A stretch of DNA of 64,000 bases. Origin: an uncultured Verrucomicrobiota bacterium (GTDB lineage: Bacteria; Verrucomicrobiota; Verrucomicrobiia; Limisphaerales; UBA9464). Shown in pieces: positions 60,324-62,442 of the stretch. Position 1 is the first letter of the stretch. Every line of letters starts with the position of its first letter. The notes below the pieces were generated by a model. That model was not told the DNA's origin and made no database searches. It saw only the letters and a program-made list of their open reading frames with translations. Made by a program: the position numbers and the translations under genes. The DNA lies in assembly GCA_903907995.1 (NCBI GenBank), contig CAIVQH010000018.1, forward strand, positions 56,755 to 120,754, given 5' to 3'.

Positions 60324-61550
<1,227 letters not shown>

Positions 61551-61610
61551 GTTGCCTTACTTATCTGCGAGGCTCCTGTTCGAGAGCGACCAATAGCCAG
61601 AAGGGTGGTA

Positions 61611-61679
61611 GGGCGAGCGTCCCCGCGAGCCGTGCCGCCCCAGACCGAGGCCGCCTCGGCTCGCGCGGACGCTCGCCCC
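61611..61679. repeat. REP-like inverted doublet A upstream of RAYT
   Basis: GGGCGAGCGTCCCCGCGAGCCG (61611-61632) and inverted CGGCTCGCGCGGACGCTCGCCCC (61657-61679). Confidence 0.88.
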
Positions 61680-61689
61680 AGCGTGCGCT

Positions 61690-62349
61690 TTGCAAGTTTA
61701 TGGCTGCGTAACACAAATGAACGCCTCGTCTGGCGACAATCTTCCTCAGCGGCACAATCCAGCGACCGGTGTTCGCATCGATCTCGGCCAGCCGAACATG
61801 GTGTTGCTGACCGTGGCTACCAAGAAGCGTGACCCTTGGATCGCCAACGAGACCGCCTACCGACTGCTGCATGAGGCCTGGTCGGAAGCCACTGCTTGGT
61901 TGGTGGGAGATTACCTGCCGATGCCGGATCACTTGCACTGCTTCTGTGCACCGCATGATCTGAGCGTCGATATCGAGACTTGGATCGCTTATTGGAAACG
62001 AGAGTTTGCGCTGAAACGGAAGAGGCTCACGGGGAAGCCTGACTTGCCGGACGGTCTGGGTAAGACATCGGCTTCTATGGCTGTCGGGCCTCGGCTCGCG
62101 GGGACGCTCGCCCCACCCGGCGCCGGGTTAGGTGGGGCCGCCAACGTGCGGGGTGGCGTTGGGCAAAAGACGTTACCCGAATGGAAGTTCCAGTCACGCG
62201 GGTGGCATCATCGGTTACGTCATGGAGACAGCTATTCGGTGAAGTGGACATATGTGCAGGAAAATCCGGTGCGTAAGAATCTTTGCCAACGCATGGAAGA
62301 TTGGCCGTACAAGGGCAGGGTGTTCGACCTGTTCTGGTCCGGCCAATGA
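61690..62349 (+). mobile_element. REP-associated tyrosine transposase (RAYT / IS200-like Y1 transposase)
   Basis: HUH motif MPDHLHCF; RGWHHRLRHGDSYSVKWTYVQENPVRKNL (catalytic Tyr region); flanked by REP repeats. Confidence 0.88.
62092..62118 (-). repeat. REP A copy inside the RAYT ORF
   Basis: CGGCTCGCGGGGACGCTCGCCCCACCC, in frame as RLAGTLAPP. Confidence 0.88.
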
Positions 62350-62358
62350 CCCGGCGTC

Positions 62359-62385
62359 GGGTGGGGCGAGCGTCCCCGCGAGCCG
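62359..62385 (+). repeat. REP A copy downstream of RAYT
   Basis: GGGTGGGGCGAGCGTCCCCGCGAGCCG; degenerate inverted partner around 62409-62425. Confidence 0.85.
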
Positions 62386-62442
62386 TCAGCCATGCGGCAA
62401 TCTTCGTACCGCGAGCGTCCCCCTTTTGTCCTCCTGTTGCCG

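Follow-up and report, generated by a model that had tools for sequence, protein, structure and literature searches.

The window, that is, the whole stretch of 64,000 nucleotides analyzed, contains what by its sequence is a REPtron: one RAYT (TnpA_REP) gene accompanied by its cognate REP hairpins. A further REP copy lies in frame inside the gene, and we consider it likely that this copy is a tolerated linker insertion in a loop of the protein, supplied by REPs that multiplied around the RAYT gene. The features concerned are listed below.

60324-61550, + strand: trpB-like gene, the 5' neighbour of the RAYT gene (named from the protein, read by eye)
61608-61677: upstream REP doublet, with a + copy at 61612-61632 (GTAG foot at 61608) and a - copy at 61657-61677, recognized from hairpin and matches
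61717-62349, + strand: RAYT (TnpA_REP) gene, 210 aa from ATG 61717, with an alternative TTG start at 61690
61927-61938, + strand: HUH motif DHLH (H72, H74), from sequence and alignment
62023-62037, - strand: possible decayed REP relic, AGGCTCACGGGGAAG against CGGCTCGCGGGGACG, 12 of 15 bases identical, by eye
62026-62175, + strand: in-frame insertion of 150 bases (residues 104-153), from alignment with insert-less homologs
62092-62117, - strand: intact internal REP CGGCTCGCGGGGACGCTCGCCCCACC, an exact match, read RLAGTLAP(P)
62251-62253, + strand: catalytic Tyr codon (Y179, in YVQENP), from sequence and an invariant alignment column
62349-62385, + strand: downstream REP, core at 62365-62385 and GTGG foot at 62361, with extra bases in common with the internal copy

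The RAYT gene and its flanking repeats

Translation of the RAYT reading frame showed it to be open from TTG 61690 or ATG 61717 to the stop at 62349, and H72, H74 and Y179 align with the catalytic residues of related proteins. The alignment thus places an HUH motif and a single Tyr in the protein, and the Y1 transposase fold is taken from an insert-less relative, L063, whose model matched E. coli TnpA_REP best in structure (4ER8, E 1.9e-5). Only one family model matched the window protein, NCBIfam NF047646 ('REP-associated tyrosine transposase'), with 58 bits against a cut-off of 80; as insert-less members of the clade likewise stay below the cut-off (61-79.6 bits), this shortfall is clade-wide. 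A Pfam search of the ORF returned no match. Moreover, the 5.1 Mb home genome holds one match to the RAYT, unlike what is seen for an IS transposase. Identity between the window gene and L061 amounts to 78, 88 and 50% at codon positions 1, 2 and 3, respectively, which indicates that the core of the protein has been under constraint, while dN/dS is unusable for this pair because synonymous rates are saturated.

The REP core, GGCGAGCGTCCCCGCGAGCCG, is found in the window at 61612 (+), 61657 (-, one mismatch), 62092 (-, exact), 62365 (+, exact) and 63939 (+, one mismatch), and dinucleotide shuffles of the window gave no match to it. It folds as GGC-GA-GCG-loop-CGC-GA-GCC, preceded by a GTAG or GTGG foot, and inspection by eye of the core with its GTGG foot showed all six frames to be free of stop codons. 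Hairpins with a GT[AG]G foot that are repeated in the genome flank the gene, as expected for a RAYT. The earlier note on this DNA had described a RAYT gene between REPs with another copy translated as RLAGTLAPP inside its ORF; the sites at 61612, 61657 and 62365, the aligned HUH and Tyr residues, and the exact internal match in an open frame confirm both statements. It had also proposed counting the repeat genome-wide, which yielded 62 sites at up to two mismatches in the home genome, many of them in +/- pairs 45 bases apart, versus none for a reversed-pattern control. When 64 sites were examined with a crude hexamer coding score, none fell inside clearly coding sequence, a result showing only that intragenic REPs are rare in this genome and not their exact number, since the known RAYT-internal copy itself scores weakly.

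In addition, genomes G043, G258, G238, G275, G069, G071, G232, G257, G123 and G003, which span several families of the order, hold the REP core GGCGAGCGTCCNCGCGAGCC in multiple copies (12-68 sites); it is absent from the window's congeners G002, G006 and G007.

The inserted segment and its history

Judging from the alignment, the segment that holds the internal REP is an insertion absent from most relatives: in L063-L067 and most others, KHKR-like residues join W[RK]FQSRGWHH directly, with no 50-residue segment between them. The earlier note had suspected an insertion at residues ~130-155, and the insertion is real but reaches over about 50 residues (62026-62175), of which the intact REP accounts for only 9. 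That note had further considered that homologs without nearby REPs might share the segment, or that the ORF might lack catalytic residues; neither was found, as most relatives are without the segment and the alignment shows HUH and Tyr retained. The distance from HUH to Tyr in the window RAYT is 109 residues. As the AlphaFold model of this protein is poor (mean pLDDT 48), the loop position of the insertion rests on insert-less L063 (mean pLDDT 74), in which the insertion point falls after helix alphaC (79-94) and before strand beta4 (101-108).

Together with its surrounding bases, the internal REP agrees with the downstream copy at 36 of 37 bases (97.3%), the match extending past the REP core. 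That the linker should merely resemble a REP by chance is exceedingly improbable: it is indeed GC-rich, low in complexity and rich in proline, glycine and alanine, but the exact 21-base match, the agreement with the downstream copy, the lack of any match in the shuffles and the empty reversed control rule out a fortuitous resemblance.

The neighbourhood of the gene offers a view of how the insertion may have arisen. The gene trpB encodes the beta subunit of tryptophan synthase, and the trpB-like ORF of the window has tblastn identities of 84.7% in L061 and 84.5% in L068. RAYT sequence adjoins trpB in the window, in L061 (contig G275:C36) and in L068, so the three loci probably come from one ancestor. 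In L061, an inside-out REP doublet occupies the window's insertion point (KRKR/LAGTLAPP...GVPASL), and the loop was probably occupied already in the ancestor common to both. The possible relic at 62023-62037 coincides with the left edge of the window insertion, the position taken by the REP in L061 and L062, while the intact window REP is probably a later arrival, given how closely it matches the downstream copy. The earlier proposal that a REP invaded its own transposase gene without inactivating it therefore holds as regards the open frame and the catalytic residues, but not as a single recent event, since occupation of the loop is probably ancestral.

The third locus, L068, has the order trpB, one REP and the C-terminal half of a RAYT; the HUH half is missing, and the remnant carries His in place of the catalytic Tyr as well as a stop codon. 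This is most simply read as a deletion running from the upstream REP to a loop REP, but the breakpoint is unplaceable within the REP and the right-hand noncoding match is weak. Similarly, L112 (in G123) retains only the C-terminal half, which starts beside a REP-like hairpin. These two truncated genes give some weight to the idea of a dying copy, also raised in the earlier note, according to which the gene lost its activity through the insertion and the open frame survives only as a remnant. The idea fits L068 and L112, truncated as they are beside a REP, but is improbable for the window gene, where the ORF is open, all catalytic residues are kept, and the first two codon positions remain conserved relative to L061 despite saturated synonymous sites; on this combination of open frame, aligned catalytic residues and codon constraint we reject a frame-breaking or inactivating insertion there. 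The trpB-linked series, with a loop occupied, an extra copy gained and half a gene lost, offers a system for studying REP movement and the death of RAYT genes.

Internal repeats in related genes

We gathered 94 distinct RAYT loci, nearly all of the window's own class, of which 82 have both motifs, and counted a gene as holding an internal copy of its own flanking repeat if the match reached 32 bits. The HUH-Tyr spacing is 55-64 residues in 72 of the 82, and none of these carries such a copy. The other 10 have long spacings (69-122 residues), and 7 of them carry their own flanking REP, namely the window gene, L061, L062, L093, L106, L109 and L051; no internal copy was detected in the long-spaced L046, L047 and L049. 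In a control with mismatched genes and flanks, 3 of 240 pairs reached 36 bits. The inserts of the window, L061 and L062 belong to one REP family, and those of L093, L106, L109 and L051 are distinct both from this family and among themselves. According to the alignment, six of the insertions lie between alphaC and beta4, and one, an array in L109, before alphaC. On a tree calculated for 85 RAYTs with the inserts removed, and with truncated L068 and L112 also labelled as having a REP inside, this label requires 6 changes, at least 5 of them being forced by starred branches. The seven cases are not all independent, as the insertions of the window and L061 probably go back to a single event in their ancestor. 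Moreover, the copies of the inserted REP (up to three mismatches) lie at the RAYT locus itself in 5 of 5 cases in G116, 9 of 10 in G103, 5 of 5 in G020 and 3 of 5 in G166.

This distribution bears on whether the internal REP has a function. It might serve self-regulation, as a site in ssDNA or mRNA where the RAYT binds or cuts and so limits its own expression or copy number, the site being kept by selection. REPs of differing sequence do recur between HUH and Tyr in at least 5 lineages, and the internal copy of the window is an intact hairpin; nevertheless, 72 of the 82 relatives do without one, copy number, orientation and position vary (L062 has a single copy, L061 a doublet and L109 an array placed in a different loop), the window may hold an older copy that has decayed, and neutral tolerance predicts the same distribution. 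Self-regulation is thus unlikely. We also give little credence to the stronger proposal that these linker REPs are convergently selected self-targeting sites, through which the RAYT would act on its own gene by cleavage, repression or deletion of the HUH half; if true, such sites would cap RAYT activity.

Among the three options of the earlier note, tolerated linker insertion is the best supported. RAYT-linked REP copying or local duplication would repeatedly place REPs at the RAYT locus, and those landing in frame in a surface loop would be tolerated. The reasons we propose are that the REP core is free of stops in all six frames and that the loop is not part of the catalytic centre. Loop REPs would then persist, decay and gain new neighbours as passengers rather than working parts, and copies in or beside the gene may serve as deletion break points.

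Some loci showed further peculiarities. The array of L109 (G103:C68, 1678-2295; HUH-Tyr spacing 122) consists of in-frame repeats whose units read LGRSLALPG, LGGRLALPE, NLAPPG, GRATLPRS and GGNLALPD. In G116, a GGGTGAGAGTCCCCTCGAACCC hairpin lies inside the RAYT gene, and just 5 copies are present in that genome, each of them at the RAYT locus; the whole genome of G166 contains 92 copies of GGGTGAGAGTCCCCTCGAACCC, most of them exact and many at a distance of 20-300 bases from the start of a contig, perhaps as part of a longer repeat of recent origin at which the assembly broke off. In L107 (G133:C219), the RAYT frame after WRWQA is replaced from 2054 onward by a tandem repeat with VAVDSAGNVYVAD-type units in another frame, by gene truncation or an assembly join, and its self-match was set aside because the repeat has taken the place of the RAYT 3' end. 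The self-match of L075 was also set aside, as L075/L123 (G069:C479, 3-990) is a tandem RAYT pair in different frames, with repeats of ~157 bases and GTGGGGCGAGACTCCGTCGAGCCC hairpins. In L105 (G071:C118), the RAYT enters an N stretch after 2259, past ...GRAQWR and just beyond the linker position.

Comparison with known systems

REP self-insertion into RAYT genes is an already known phenomenon, as Quentin et al. 2018 (PMC6006769) reported in-frame REPs within tnpA_REP genes, generally in the HUH-Tyr interval, as a feature of subclass 2.4. They also found some REP insertions in subclass 2.8, and proposed that such insertions in general have little effect on activity. Subclass 2.4 is listed there for Cyanobacteria, Bacteroidetes and various phyla, and the main text of that paper does not contain the word Verrucomicrobia. 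The window locus resembles subclass 2.4 in having its own REPs both beside the RAYT gene and inside it, between HUH and Tyr and with the frame kept. However, the motifs of that subclass (NH[IFV]H, WQ and YIxNNP in Table 1 of PMC6006769) are DHLH, FQ and YVQENP in the window RAYT, and the subclass has its variable insertion after beta3 and before alphaC, whereas that of the window lies between alphaC and beta4 according to the L063 model and the alignment. Motifs and loop position thus rule out assignment to subclass 2.4, and only L109 has an insert before alphaC, on the side used by that subclass. What is new here is the Verrucomicrobia lineage, the loop used, the recurrence with different REP sequences and the truncated remnants edged by REPs. 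REP self-insertion into RAYT genes is therefore not confined to subclass 2.4 and recurs in Verrucomicrobia, mostly in another loop between HUH and Tyr.

Resemblances to other systems are less close. The E. coli TnpA_REP (4ER8) REPtron has the same fold, HUH-Tyr core and single gene flanked by REPs, with ~19% identity over the structural match. Palindromic elements of Rickettsia, as cited by di Nocera et al. 2013 (PMC3733652), are likewise translated in frame inside genes, but they are another repeat, and the account given there draws no RAYT link. The same authors described intragenic GTAG REPs, among others in the verrucomicrobium Opitutus terrae, which, as in the window, stand in frame inside protein genes and are thought to be tolerated in flexible parts of the proteins; their targets include replication and repair genes, whereas here the target is the RAYT itself.
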